Positions 9,292 to 15,662 are shown, numbered from the stretch's first letter. The stretch is DNA of 36,263 nucleotides from Candidatus Zixiibacteriota bacterium (GCA_020346225.1 CP070777.1:914083-950345), one strand, 5' to 3'. Notes: a model not told the origin generated them from the sequence alone. Numbers and translations: made by a program.

Positions 9292-9414
9292 GGGAGTGCT
9301 TTTCCTGAACGCTACTTATTTCGATTCTCAGTCGGTCATACGGTGCAACCGGTAACTCCATAGTGTGTTTAAGAAATGCCTGCTTGGAATGATAATTCTG
9401 TAACTTCGATCATC

Positions 9415-10671
9415 ATGACTAAGGTACTCACAATAGCTCTGCTTCTCCTGCCGCTGCCCGCCGCTGCCGCCTCGCTGCTTATCCCCATGGATAAGTCCCA
9501 GACCGACCACCTCAAGGCCTACGGTGTCGTCTACAAGGCCCTCGATACCGGCTCCAAGGCCCAGTGGCTCCTCAACTACAAAGGCGGCTCGTTCCTCATC
9601 GATTACTCTCAGGACGTCGCTAACATGTGCCTGCTGATGGGCGTAAGCTGCGAGCAGGTTACCTCCGGCCAGGTGGCCGATATCTATCGCGTCATCGAAG
9701 TCGAAAACATGGAACGGGTGGAACTTGAAAAAGCCCCGAAAATTGCCGTCTACTCGCCACCGTCCATGCAGCCTTGGGACGACGCCGTCACCCTCGCCCT
9801 CACTTACGCCGAAATAAAGTACGATGTCGTCTGGGACGAGGAAGTCCTTTCCGGGGCCCTCGACGAGTACGACTGGCTCCACTGCCACCACGAGGACTTC
9901 ACCGGCCAGTACGGCAAGTTCTACGCTGCCTACCGCCACCAGTTGTGGTATCAGGCCGATGTCCGGGCTAACGAAGACATGGCCGCCAGGCTGGGCTACA
10001 GCAAGGTCTCGCTGATGAAACTCGATGTCGCCCGGACCATTTACGATTACGTCCGGCGCGGCGGCTTCCTTTTTTCCATGTGCTCCGCTCCGGAGACTAT
10101 CGATATAGCCCTGGCCGCCGAGGGGGTCGATATCGTCCCCCGTGAGTTCGATGGTGACCCGGTCGATCCCGGCTGTCAGGAACGGCTCGATTACAGCCGG
10201 ACTTTTGCTTTCGAAAACTTCGTAATCACCATCGACCCGCTCCTGTACCGTCACTCGGAAATCGACACTTACCCCGACCGCCAGATCCGCTTCCCCCGCC
10301 AGGAGGACGACTTCTTCTACCTGTTCGATTTCGCCGCCAAACTCGACCCTGTCCCCACCATGCTGACCCAGAACCACCGCAACACTATCGACGGTTTTAT
10401 GGGGCAGACGACCGGCTTTAGAAAATCGCTCTTGAAGAAATTCGTAACCGTGATGGCCCAGCCGGATAACTACGATGAGGTCCGCTACATCCACGGCAAC
10501 CTGGGCCGGGGAACGTTCACTTTCCTGTCCGGCCACGACCCAGAGGACTACCGTCACATGGTTCATGACCCGCCCACGGACCTTCTCCTGCACAAGAATT
10601 CCCCCGGCTACCGGCTTATTCTCAATAACATCCTCTTTCCGGCGGCCAAGAAGAAAGAGCGCAAAACATGA
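9415..10671 (+). CDS. Exported conserved protein of unknown function
   Basis: I recognise the sequence style from Bacteroidetes-like genomes, where similar proteins are sometimes named 'asparagine synthetase B'. No glutaminase Cys1 or ATP-pyrophosphatase motif is visible, so I do not adopt that name. The chosen ATG gives 418 residues with a clean signal peptide (MTKVLTIALLLLPLPAAAA), then 'SLLIPMDKSQTDHLKAYG'. An upstream in-frame ATG at 9376 would only add 13 polar residues; neither start has a good RBS. Strongly patterned segments are 'PKIAVYSP', 'QPWDDAVTLALTYAEI', 'YDWLHCHHEDFTGQYGKFYA', 'GGFLFSMCSAPETIDIALA' and 'GRGTFTFLSGHDPEDY', suggesting an alpha/beta fold resembling ThuA or glutamine-amidotransferase-like domains. 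The HCHHED cluster could bind a metal. It overlaps ruvX by 4 bp, so it is probably in the cdaA-ruvX transcript. Confidence 0.8.
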   Translation: MTKVLTIALLLLPLPAAAASLLIPMDKSQTDHLKAYGVVYKALDTGSKAQWLLNYKGGSFLIDYSQDVANMCLLMGVSCEQVTSGQVADIYRVIEVENMERVELEKAPKIAVYSPPSMQPWDDAVTLALTYAEIKYDVVWDEEVLSGALDEYDWLHCHHEDFTGQYGKFYAAYRHQLWYQADVRANEDMAARLGYSKVSLMKLDVARTIYDYVRRGGFLFSMCSAPETIDIALAAEGVDIVPREFDGDPVDPGCQERLDYSRTFAFENFVITIDPLLYRHSEIDTYPDRQIRFPRQEDDFFYLFDFAAKLDPVPTMLTQNHRNTIDGFMGQTTGFRKSLLKKFVTVMAQPDNYDEVRYIHGNLGRGTFTFLSGHDPEDYRHMVHDPPTDLLLHKNSPGYRLILNNILFPAAKKKERKT

Positions 10672-12201: not shown

Positions 12202-12738
12202 CTAAGCGGACCAGGGCTGGTCGCGCAGGACACTGGCAAACTCGGCCAGCAGGTTGTCCATGGCTCCTTCTTCGAACAGCGTAAAGGCCGTGGGACTCTC
12301 ACTGCTGTAGCCGATCATGCCGATGACCTCCCCTTGGTGGCACAGCGGCTGCAGAACGAATGACCGCGAACCTTCGTCAACGAGCAGCTTGCGCTCGAAG
12401 AAATTGCCGCTGAAAGCCCCACAGAAATTCTCGGTATATACCCGGCCGCACTCGGCCACCTTTTCGAACAGCGAGGATTCGCTGGGCAGTTTTATCGCCA
12501 GGCCCTCCCGCATCTGGCCGTTGTTCCAGGTCGATACCGCCGCCAGCGGCCCGCCGATGCCGCTGCGAAGCAGCAAAACTCCCCGGCTGATTTCGAATCG
12601 AGTCTTCAGCCGCCGCGTCAAATCAAAAAACAGTTGCGCCGGACGTTCATGCATCCCCGTCCTGGCGGACAGCTCCATCGCCGCCCCCTGATTTCCGACC
12701 GGATCCTTCGCCTGCCCGGCTGTCTTCGGTCCATCCAT
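12202..12738 (-). CDS. Small GAF-domain-like protein
   Basis: Last gene of a reverse-strand trio. The chosen ATG (12 nt after the stop of the regulator gene, with a G-rich 'GGGCGGCGG' in front) gives 178 residues; a longer frame would overlap the regulator by about 50 bp and adds only low-complexity polar sequence. About residues 40-175 look like one GAF domain: 'LTRRLKTRFEISRGVLLLRS', 'KLPSESSLFEKVAECGRVYT', 'LLVDEGSRSFVLQPLCHQGE' and 'VIGMIGYSSESPTAFTLFEE'. There is no output domain, no membrane segment and no catalytic motif, so it may be a ligand-binding partner of the two signalling proteins encoded upstream. The ligand is unknown. Naming it a GAF protein rests on pattern only. Confidence 0.72.
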   Translation of the reverse strand: MDGPKTAGQAKDPVGNQGAAMELSARTGMHERPAQLFFDLTRRLKTRFEISRGVLLLRSGIGGPLAAVSTWNNGQMREGLAIKLPSESSLFEKVAECGRVYTENFCGAFSGNFFERKLLVDEGSRSFVLQPLCHQGEVIGMIGYSSESPTAFTLFEEGAMDNLLAEFASVLRDQPWSA

Positions 12739-12749
12739 ATGCCGCCGCC

Positions 12750-14150
12750 CTACTGGGCCACCTTTTCTCTCTTCAGGTTGTATTTTTTCACCTTGCGCCA
12801 TAGTGTCGTCCGTCCGATTCCCAGCTCCTGGGCGGTCTGAGTGAAATTCCAGTTGTTCTCGGAGAGAGCTTTGATAATGATCTTGCGCTGACCCTCGTCC
12901 AGAGTGCCGCTCTTTCCGGTCGGCGCCAGCCGCTTCGCTGCTCCCGCTTCGACCCTGTCCGCCGCCTCGGTGCCGATGAACAGTATGTCGTCCGCGTCGA
13001 TCTGGTCATCCCGGCACAGTGCCGCCGCCCGCTTCAGGGTGTTCTCCATTTCGCGCACGTTCCCCGGCCATTTGTGACCGACAAGAAGATCGAGCGCCCG
13101 CCTCGTTACCTGAATTTGCGGCCGCCCCGTTTCGTGCGACAGCCGCCGCAGAAAATGCTCGGTCAGCATTTCGATATCTTCCGCTCGCTCGGCCAGACCC
13201 GGCATCTTCACGGGCAACACGCTCAACTGGTAGAACAGCTCTTTGGAGAAGCAACCCTCCTCCACTACCGCCGGCAGGTCAACCGTAGTTGCGGAAATAA
13301 CTCTGACATCGACCTTTTTGGGCTGGGCGCTCCCCGGTATCGGCACCGTGAAATCCCGCAGGAACTCCATCAGCCGTGGCTGCAACGATGCCGGCAGGCG
13401 GTCAACGTCATCGAAGAATATCGTGCCGCCGTCGGCCTCGGACAGCAAGCCGGTAAAGCCCGTTCGACCCATTGGCGTGTCGCCGCCGGTTTCGCCGAAC
13501 AACTGCATTTCGAGCACCTGCTCGGAGGTCGTGGCGCAATCGACAATCACGAACCTGTTCTTCCGACGATTCGAATGGTAATGAATTACCTTGGCCACCA
13601 GCTCCTTGCCGCAGCCGGCCGGTCCCGTCAGCATCAACGATATGTCGGTGGCCGAAACCCGCTGGAGTGTCTCCTTCAGGTTTACGATATGCTTGGATAT
13701 GCCTACGATGTTGTCGAAACCGTAGCTCATGGCCATATGCACCCGGAGGTTGGTGAGTTCGTTCTTGATACAACTGTGCTCCAGGGCTTTGTTCAGGCGG
13801 AGCACGAAATCCTCGTAAGTGAAATTCTCCGTGACGCAGTCATAAGCTCCCGCCCCGACTATCCCGTAAGCGGCCTCGGTGTCGCCGGAGTCCAGCACGC
13901 CGAAAACCTCCACCCAGGGGTACGAGGACCGCACCTTCTTTACGATTTCGCCCAGCTCGCCGCCGTCGTCTCCGCGAACGACTATCAGGTGGTACGTGTT
14001 CTCGTTCAGCCTGACCGTAGCGTCTTTCAGGCAGTCCACCGTGGTCACCTGAATGTTGCCGCGCTCCAGCGGCAGTACGGGCGCGTCCGGCCTGCTGCCG
14101 GTGCTGAGATAAAGCACCCGGAATCTGTTATTGTCGCCGGTTGTTTCCAT
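12750..14150 (-). CDS. Degenerate NtrC-like AAA+ / Fis-type DNA-binding regulator
   Basis: Three-part layout of a sigma-54 activator in 466 residues: an N-terminal receiver-like domain (about 10-125), an AAA+ domain (about 147-380) and a Fis-type helix-turn-helix (about 417-460, 'NWNFTQTAQELGIGRTTLWR'). Key residues are missing. The receiver has no convincing phospho-Asp (LIVVRGDDGG). Walker A is present (GPAGCGKE, 176-183), but the GAFTGA loop is replaced by GDTPMG (223-228, gap-free alignment between the FG and ADGGT anchors). Walker B ends DD not DE (247-248), and both arginine-finger positions of 'FRxDLxxRL' read Ser and Gln in 'FSKELFYQL'. The DNA-binding helix looks intact. I infer a DNA-binding regulator that does not remodel sigma-54 holoenzyme. 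It follows the sensor-like gene by 9 bp and precedes the GAF gene by 11 bp. Confidence 0.85.
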   Translation of the reverse strand: METTGDNNRFRVLYLSTGSRPDAPVLPLERGNIQVTTVDCLKDATVRLNENTYHLIVVRGDDGGELGEIVKKVRSSYPWVEVFGVLDSGDTEAAYGIVGAGAYDCVTENFTYEDFVLRLNKALEHSCIKNELTNLRVHMAMSYGFDNIVGISKHIVNLKETLQRVSATDISLMLTGPAGCGKELVAKVIHYHSNRRKNRFVIVDCATTSEQVLEMQLFGETGGDTPMGRTGFTGLLSEADGGTIFFDDVDRLPASLQPRLMEFLRDFTVPIPGSAQPKKVDVRVISATTVDLPAVVEEGCFSKELFYQLSVLPVKMPGLAERAEDIEMLTEHFLRRLSHETGRPQIQVTRRALDLLVGHKWPGNVREMENTLKRAAALCRDDQIDADDILFIGTEAADRVEAGAAKRLAPTGKSGTLDEGQRKIIIKALSENNWNFTQTAQELGIGRTTLWRKVKKYNLKREKVAQ

Positions 14151-14159
14151 GGTTTCTCA

Positions 14160-15545
14160 TCAGCCTAATATGGTTAACTCTGTCACCAGGTCGTCATTGT
14201 CTATGTGTAAGTGTTTGACTATTTCCACTCCGATGTGCGCGGCTACCGTCTGTGTGAAAATGCTGGCCTGCGGGCTCAGACCGCTGAGCCGTTTATCGCC
14301 GGGCAGCGACGATACGAATCCAACCACGCAGCCCCCTTCCGCATTCGGCGTCACCGTAATGCTCACGCGCGCATCGCTGCCGGCAAACGTGGTGTGAGCC
14401 AGCAGCGTTTCGTAAAACAGTAGCCGAAAGGCGTCGCCGGGGGCGCTGGCCGTCCGGCCGCCGCCGTGCACCCGCACGGCTATCTCGAGGGAGCCTCGAT
14501 GCTGTCGGCGTAAGTCGTCGATGGCTTTGTCCAGCTCGCCGCAAAGATCGCACGTCTGCTGCTCTTTATCGTCGATCCGCAGCACCAGGGCGAGCTGTCT
14601 GGCCAGAAGGTGCGTCTGACAGGCCGTCCGGCGGACATCCTGCTCCGCCTCAGACCCTTCGCCCACCGCCTCCGTCCTTTCCGCTTGCGGAAGAAGAGAA
14701 GCGCGTTCGAGAAGTTCGGCCGAAGTACTTTCCAGCCGATCCGCCATCTGGTTCAATACCGTCCGGTCTTCCGTTTCCCCGGCCGCACGGGGCTCGAAAG
14801 TAATCACCGAAAGATCCAGCCCCCTCGAATCGAGATTATCCATGCGGAGATTGTATCGCGGCAGCAGCGGTGAGATGTGATACCGCAACTGGTCCATACC
14901 GATACCGACCAGCATGCGCTCCGGCCGCGACATCAACCGGCCGGCGGTCCGATTGACCGCCAGCAACCGTCCCGTGCTGCGGTTTATTACGATGGTCGCG
15001 CGGCTGCGACTCAGGTGCTTCCGCAGCGGTGCGATGTCTCCGGCTATCTTTTCATATGCATCCCGGCAGGTGTTCACCAGTCTGACGAAGTGGCAGTCCT
15101 CGGAAAAGGCGCCCAGCCGGTGTTCCAGACCGAAAAAGCCCAGGACTATTTTATTGTCCTCATCTGGATTGACCGTCGCCGAGAATATCCGGTAGTGCTG
15201 CCCGCTTTCGACCATCGCTTCCGGCCGGTAGCGATGAGAGAAAATGGCCGCGCCCGCCTGGGTGGCCGTGGTCTCGATCTCTTCGAAAGGGAAAAGCTCC
15301 AAACCTTCCGGATGTATGTACGTCCGCTCTCTCACCAGAAAAGTCAGGCAATCTTCCGGGGCCAGGCCGTCCAGAAAGACTTTCTCCTTGTCCGTGATCC
15401 ATCCGCTCAGAAACATCCTGGTAAGGAGTACCTTCATTACCCGGCTGGCCTCATTCTCGTCAAAACCGAACGGTTCCGGGGCGGGGTCGAAGCGAGGCCT
15501 CCTTTCGACCCGAAGTGCTTCAGCGTGAAACTGTTTAGTTAGCAT
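14160..15545 (-). CDS. Histidine-kinase-like sensor protein lacking catalytic motifs
   Basis: First gene of the reverse trio; soluble, 461 residues, no membrane segment. A GAF-like region (about 60-170, with 'GLELFPFEEI' and 'NKIVLGFFGLE') is followed by a PAS-like region (about 180-250, 'ATIVINRSTGRLLAVNRTAG'), a helical stretch rich in Glu/Ala/Leu (about 260-345), and a C-terminal part shaped like a HATPase_c domain ('DAFRLLFYETLLAH...ARVSITVTPN' then 'GCVVGFVSS'). The expected H-box histidine is not seen, the N-box Asn is absent (LLAHTTFAG where LxNAxKF-like sequence is expected), and the DxGxG and GxGL loops are missing. It is probably a pseudokinase that signals to the NtrC-like protein by contact. 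The ATG start has only weak 'GAGAAAG' in front. Fold calls are by eye. Confidence 0.72.
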   Translation of the reverse strand: MLTKQFHAEALRVERRPRFDPAPEPFGFDENEASRVMKVLLTRMFLSGWITDKEKVFLDGLAPEDCLTFLVRERTYIHPEGLELFPFEEIETTATQAGAAIFSHRYRPEAMVESGQHYRIFSATVNPDEDNKIVLGFFGLEHRLGAFSEDCHFVRLVNTCRDAYEKIAGDIAPLRKHLSRSRATIVINRSTGRLLAVNRTAGRLMSRPERMLVGIGMDQLRYHISPLLPRYNLRMDNLDSRGLDLSVITFEPRAAGETEDRTVLNQMADRLESTSAELLERASLLPQAERTEAVGEGSEAEQDVRRTACQTHLLARQLALVLRIDDKEQQTCDLCGELDKAIDDLRRQHRGSLEIAVRVHGGGRTASAPGDAFRLLFYETLLAHTTFAGSDARVSITVTPNAEGGCVVGFVSSLPGDKRLSGLSPQASIFTQTVAAHIGVEIVKHLHIDNDDLVTELTILG

Positions 15546-15585
15546 GATCGCTTTCTCGTTTCAATATGACACAACTATGCTATGT

Positions 15586-15600
15586 ATCGGAACGTCCGAT
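15586..15600. promoter_or_regulatory. Inverted repeat, possible operator in divergent promoter region
   Basis: A perfect dyad ATCGGA-ACG-TCCGAT lies about 40 bp upstream of the reverse-strand trio and 62 bp upstream of pyk, in the 117-bp gap the two transcripts share. A second dyad, CCGGCCG (15620-15626) with CGGCCGG (15651-15657), ends five bases before the pyk start codon. Either could be a regulator site; the second could also fold in the pyk leader RNA. Confidence 0.35.
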
Positions 15601-15662
15601 AAATCCTTTAGCCGCTTACCCGGCCGCTTTTTTGTTGATTTTCTGAGCATCGGCCGGTAGTA

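Follow-up and report, generated by a model that had tools for sequence, protein, structure and literature searches.

How a kinase and an NtrC-type regulator could convey a signal when neither keeps the residues for phosphate transfer is the question raised by an operon in the window, the 36,263-nucleotide stretch of a Candidatus Zixiibacteriota genome (GCA_020346225.1, CP070777.1:914083-950345) analysed here. With a probability of about 0.6, the operon is read as a phosphorylation- and sigma54-independent feedback repressor of flagellar genes, modulated by pseudokinase and GAF partners.

Organization and conservation of the operon

Three tightly packed minus-strand ORFs form one operon in the order KINl (the pseudo-histidine-kinase), NtrCl (the regulator) and GAF protein (Table 1). 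The ORF coordinates give gaps of 9 bp between KINl and NtrCl and 11 bp between NtrCl and the GAF protein, confirming the tight reverse operon of the original prediction. The start of the GAF protein is placed at the ATG at 12736-12738, 11 bp past the NtrCl stop, and its PF01590 match (E 3.8e-5) agrees with the small GAF protein expected at this position.

KINl matches are found in 37 of 61 related genomes at E <= 0.001, so the observation is not a matter of chance. Most genomes of the order match the KINl profile strongly, the GAF protein occurs in 76 of the 132 genomes of the phylum, and named records bearing the trio are mostly Candidatus Zixiibacteriota. Nearly all loci keep the window's arrangement, in which KINl-NtrCl-GAF, in this order, converges on MltG and RuvX. 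In the profile and synteny searches that had been suggested, this arrangement spans an order of Candidatus Zixiibacteriota, with full-length ORFs.

Several features of the neighbourhood vary or stand apart. The plus-strand gene at 9376-10671 of the window, a neighbour of RuvX and MltG, encodes a protein without any Pfam match, which is 71-89% identical over many genera and is among the best conserved products of the neighbourhood. L046, L058 and L108 have neither the GAF gene nor the KINl histidine; the regulator is intact in L046 and L058. A few genomes (L145-L150) carry second, more distant GAF paralogues outside the usual locus. In family f9 (L137-L140), an extra 122-aa receiver, with a Response_reg match and a weak match to FleQ, stands between the genes for the NtrC-like and GAF proteins.

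Table 1 Coordinates of the operon, its upstream elements and the additional receiver of family f9
Feature	Coordinates	Strand	Description
KINl, pseudo-histidine-kinase, 461 aa	14160..15545	(-)	PAS-PAS-DHp-CA fold, catalytic residues missing
NtrCl, 466 aa	12750..14150	(-)	Pseudo-receiver, degenerate AAA+ and Fis-type helix-turn-helix
Small GAF-domain protein	12202..12738	(-)	PF01590
Sigma28/FliA-type promoter	15585..15610	(-)	TAAA 15607-15610, CCGATA 15585-15590, 16 bp between
Conserved operator TGTGTCATATTGAAACG (consensus TGTNYCANNNTGAAACR)	15557..15573	(-)	Palindrome, conserved among relatives
f9 extra receiver	L137 2955-3323		
f9 extra receiver	L138 2943-3311		
f9 extra receiver	L139 5326-5694		
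f9 extra receiver	L140 5371-5739		

KINl retains a kinase fold without catalytic residues

Searches of KINl against Pfam and NCBIfam return zero matches, HATPase_c and HisKA included. AlphaFold2 models of KINl and NtrCl, a structure prediction proposed at the outset, were computed from alignments of these proteins and their relatives. In the KINl model (mean pLDDT 82), two PAS-like domains are followed by a paired-helix DHp domain and a CA domain. Residues 329-461 of the latter match the CA domain of NtrB/NRII (1r62; Z 16.9, rmsd 1.8, 123 residues), other kinases, RetS and DivL among them, are also matched structurally, and a sequence profile with KINl finds ZraS (E 4.8e-7).

In the alignment, canonical relatives read FSHQLRGKLGAI, LVTNAIEA and AGMGL at the kinase motifs, whereas KINl of the window reads QMADRLESTSAEL and ETLLAHTT and has no G-box. 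The H-box His, the N-box Asn and the G2 box are all lost, and with them the phospho-acceptor and the ATP-binding motifs of a two-component kinase, while the fold is retained. The alignment of the 14160-15545 product, which the original prediction had named as a possible refutation, finds neither an H-box nor ATP-binding residues. The predicted HATPase-like fold without H-, N- or G-box residues is supported by this alignment and the 1r62 match, while the GAF content ascribed to the protein gives way to a PAS-PAS appearance. At the place of the N-box, KINl proteins of family f1, the family of the window, carry FExxLxxH (F377, E379 and H384 in the window), the His of which is present in 37 of the 39 f1 rows with a CA domain and in no row outside f1.

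NtrCl lacks the receiver and sigma54-contact residues

NtrCl matches PF00158 (sigma54-activator AAA+, E 1.9e-42), an AAA lid and PF02954 (Fis helix-turn-helix, E 3.4e-13), the combination of a Sigma54_activat-related AAA+ with a Fis helix-turn-helix that is expected of the NtrC family; the domain search gives no receiver-family match. Its model (mean pLDDT 82) matches NtrX, NtrC1, FleQ and FlrC, and the L1 region is disordered. In the receiver, the phospho-Asp, whose apparent absence had been noticed before, is indeed missing, together with the acidic pair, Thr and Lys of two-component receivers: the phospho-Asp region reads LIVVR-GDDG vs LVISDLRLGN, and the Lys region TENF vs TKPF.

The degeneration extends into the AAA+ domain, a loss missed by the original prediction. 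The L1 loop reads GETGGDTPMGRTGF, not the G[AS]FTxA of a GAFTGA-type loop. Walker A is kept, Walker B is DD, not DE, and the arginine fingers are lost (FSKELFYQL vs FREDLYYRL), leaving NtrCl without the Walker B DE and arginine fingers with which sigma54 enhancer-binding proteins hydrolyse ATP. Because the sigma54-contact loop is lost, sigma54 output from NtrCl, previously considered possible, is unlikely. Judged from the residues, the cassette is also unlikely to transfer phosphate or to activate rod and hook genes through sigma54. The Fis helix-turn-helix LGIGRTTLWRK is unchanged across all loci having that region.

Intact versions at the same locus

The first gene of families f2, f4 and f9 encodes a conventional kinase that has HisKA and HATPase_c domains and its H-, N- and G-boxes; their second gene encodes a response regulator that is intact and bears a G[AS]FT[GSN]A loop. 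The KINl proteins of family f1 all lack both N-box and G-box. In some f1 members the DHp histidine persists beside an intact regulator; in others, including the genus of the window, both are gone, and several are without the CA domain. Because these outgroup families have catalytically intact versions at the same locus, the cassette is, on sequence comparison, a degenerated descendant of an intact kinase/regulator pair with which it shares common descent. The loss of catalytic residues from both proteins and their presence in the outgroups also favour the non-phosphorylating rewiring first put forward.

Of the regulators, 40 have lost the L1 loop, Walker B Glu and arginine fingers together, 24 retain the three, and 8 show a mixture. 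Mean pairwise identities for the receiver, AAA+ and helix-turn-helix are 0.20, 0.36 and 0.66 in degenerate regulators and 0.46, 0.64 and 0.60 in intact ones. On a quick MltG and RuvX tree of 57 rows with many weak branches, single features change 4-9 times, a rough count from a tree that alone cannot separate gain from loss. The His state of KINl and the Asp state of the regulator agree in 54 of 64 loci. A statistical claim that the two losses are coupled was discarded, the coupling being non-significant on the tree's independent pairs.

Promoter and operator of the operon

In the window, the operator lies 11 bp past the -10 box of the sigma28/FliA-type promoter and 11 bp ahead of the KINl ATG. 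Its 17-bp consensus, TGTNYCA-N3-TGAAACR, is near-invariant: 12-13 of the 13 fixed bases are matched in 51 of 71 upstream regions, where shuffles reach at most 11, and correction of over-long ORFs brings the operator to 63 loci. The TAAA-N16-CCGATA promoter scores 9-10 of 10 in 60 of these 63 loci (shuffles, 0.6 of 63), and the operator sits 11 bp past the -10 box in 43 of them. The dyad at 15586-15600, initially designated as the binding site, coincides in part with the sigma28-like -10 box, and relatives do not have it; the conserved operator lies at 15557-15573 instead.

The operator of intact members occupies the same position as in degenerate ones, so that the operator alone gives no sign that degeneration changed its use. 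The palindrome has the 17-bp geometry of NtrC-family sites. Given this geometry, autoregulation and the invariant helix-turn-helix, NtrCl is the likely, predicted binder of the operator. The helix-turn-helix and the matching palindrome are both almost invariant, in keeping with the proposal that the Fis domain provides the DNA output.

In the genus, sigma28-like promoters additionally lie ahead of HDOD, signal-peptidase-like, PilM-like and prepilin-like genes (L170, L173, L183, L191, L195 and L198). This distribution suggests a wide FliA regulon, many of whose pattern hits may be chance.

A second site ahead of fliR

Exact matches to the operator are present in 70 of 80 genomes from the order, usually 1-4 per genome, where a reversed-pattern control gives mostly zero. 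A second recurrent site is found 45-55 nt ahead of fliR in f1, f2 and f3 genomes, where YGTTTCA-N3 runs into the -24 box of a TGGCAC-N5-TTG sigma54-type promoter and the element overlaps that box. Because the other half-site coincides with the -24 box, only YGTTTCA and the spacing count as independent evidence. In the genome of the window, which encodes one sigma54 and one FliA-type sigma factor, this site (1943799-1943815) is followed by fliR, flhB, flhA, flhF, flhG and fliA.

When fliR regions were picked irrespective of an exact site, GTTTCA-N3-[TC]GGC was found before fliR in 11 f1/f2 regions of one set and in most f2/f3 regions of another. Most f4 fliR regions are without it, though f4 genomes carry the trio, and GTTTCA is absent before fliR in G019 and G021, near-complete f1 genomes without the trio. 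The flagellar link of the trio is drawn from DNA sequence, namely the sigma28-like promoter and the fliR site; a literature search on Zixibacteria flagella found nothing relevant. The two elements suggest a flagellar context for the operon, which had been overlooked, and a nitrogen link finds no support.

GTTTCA was rejected as a general mark before sigma54 promoters, as it is absent at that spacing from the other TGGCAC-N5-TTG sites of the genome. TGTTTCA palindromes elsewhere were likewise rejected as a conserved regulon, since they mostly involve differing genes in each genome and some are intragenic. Among these other palindromes, only a cyclic-nucleotide-binding-type gene recurs, in 3 of 4 genus members; perfect palindromes TGTTTCANNNTGAAAC stand near position 1501 of L153, L154 and L158, before this gene (MRINNLSSTNPALDL...).

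Proposed mechanism and alternatives

In the proposed mechanism, a soluble kinase/NtrC-type pair of the FlgS/FlgR, FleS/FleR and FlrB/FlrC sort would have lost its phosphorelay and sigma54 activation. The trio would be transcribed by the FliA-type sigma factor, and the Fis helix-turn-helix of NtrCl would bind the operator just past the start of its own promoter, thereby repressing the operon. At the -24 box of the sigma54-type fliR-flhB-flhA-flhF-flhG-fliA promoter, NtrCl would repress as well. Because FliA would transcribe the trio, and NtrCl would sit both past its own start and across the fliR...fliA -24 box, FliA output would lower new synthesis of the export gate and of fliA, forming a negative feedback. 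KINl and the GAF protein are hypothesized to set the DNA-binding or oligomeric state of NtrCl through direct contact and/or a PAS/GAF ligand, with no phosphate involved.

We infer repression from operator position alone, and a regulator touching sigma28- or sigma54-polymerase at these positions could instead activate. NtrCl would then activate without sigma54, by recruitment or remodelling of the sigma28 or sigma70 polymerase, a mode proposed for HupR and Rhodobacter NtrC. The constant distance of 11 bp from the -10 box to the operator would suit polymerase contact, and GAFTGA-less relatives work at sigma70 promoters (PMC10274813), but operators located past the transcription start or covering a -24 box are typical of repressors, and such an activator is unlikely. 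Less probable still is a dominant-negative partner, in which NtrCl mixes with a resident intact sigma54 activator, poisoning that activator's ring or taking up its sites; the genome offers 23 sigma54-AAA matches, NtrCl among the weakest full-length ones, and one sigma54, yet the degenerate AAA+ surfaces are widely diverged and NtrCl owns a conserved operator.

The f1 KINl proteins that keep the DHp His without an ATPase (e.g. L040, L049 and L050) might form a ChpT/Spo0B-like phosphotransfer intermediate between another kinase and an intact NtrCl. Their FxxHxMRNKxSAI is kept in the absence of N-box and G-box and alongside an intact receiver, but the cassette of the window, having lost both His and Asp, falls outside the scheme, and L112-L115 keep the His though their receivers lost the Asp; it is doubtful to a degree between that of the activator and that of the dominant-negative partner. 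The lost catalytic residues and the low identity of KINl and receiver would also fit a functionless, drifting relic. Decay is highly improbable, however, given full-length ORFs with order and place constant across the order, a helix-turn-helix as conserved as in intact members, a near-invariant operator and promoter, and a new conserved pseudo-CA His in nearly all f1 rows with the domain.

Building on the feedback repressor, a broader and more tentative reading, somewhat short of even odds, is that phosphate signalling was converted to contact or ligand signalling several times within one order. Operon, promoter and operator would have been kept while both proteins became pseudo-enzymes, FExxLxxH was gained and the FliA-to-fliR...fliA loop was closed. 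The on/off switching of pseudo-receivers has been described as a mystery (PMC12632262), and here one operon joins a pseudo-receiver and its pseudokinase, with the likely operator known. Many related genomes carry this locus in intact, intermediate or fully degenerate form, a natural series along which phosphate-free signalling could be followed step by step, and the cassette would yield a first model of how flagella are controlled in an uncultured phylum.

Comparison with known systems

FlgS/FlgR, FleS/FleR and FlrB/FlrC are presumed to represent the ancestor type of the cassette, with which they share a soluble kinase (with PAS in FlrB and FleS) and an NtrC-type regulator. Whereas these systems pass phosphate and activate sigma54, the cassette has lost that chemistry and added the GAF protein. 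AAA+ folds close to the NtrCl model are found in FleQ and FlrC, and FleQ-FleN is an example of a flagellar NtrC-family regulator under protein-contact control. FlgS/FlgR, FleS/FleR and FlrB/FlrC belong to flagellar circuits with sigma54 and FliA, in which the kinases sense the export apparatus (PMC7064773), and FlbD is a flagellar NtrC-family regulator controlled by contact with FliX (PMC3096577). Unlike NtrCl, FleQ and FlbD are sigma54 activators with a working ATPase and without a pseudokinase in the operon.

Like TyrR, HupR, VpsR and the NtrC of Caulobacter and Rhodobacter (PMC10274813), NtrCl has lost the sigma54-contact loop but kept its DNA-binding part, and Caulobacter NtrC is also a repressor (PMC10274813; PMC3162934). 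Caulobacter and Rhodobacter NtrC, however, still signal through the phospho-Asp and a functional kinase; NtrCl goes beyond GAFTGA-less NtrC in that the Walker B Glu, the arginine fingers and the partner kinase have also been lost, repeatedly in one order. RetS and DivL resemble KINl in their DHp-CA fold with altered catalysis, and protein contact would correspond to their mode of action, but they act on other kinases, whereas KINl is without all catalytic motifs and is paired with a pseudo-receiver regulator. While no description of the whole combination was found in the literature, each part resembles a precedent in TyrR, Caulobacter NtrC, RetS, DivL or FlbD-FliX.
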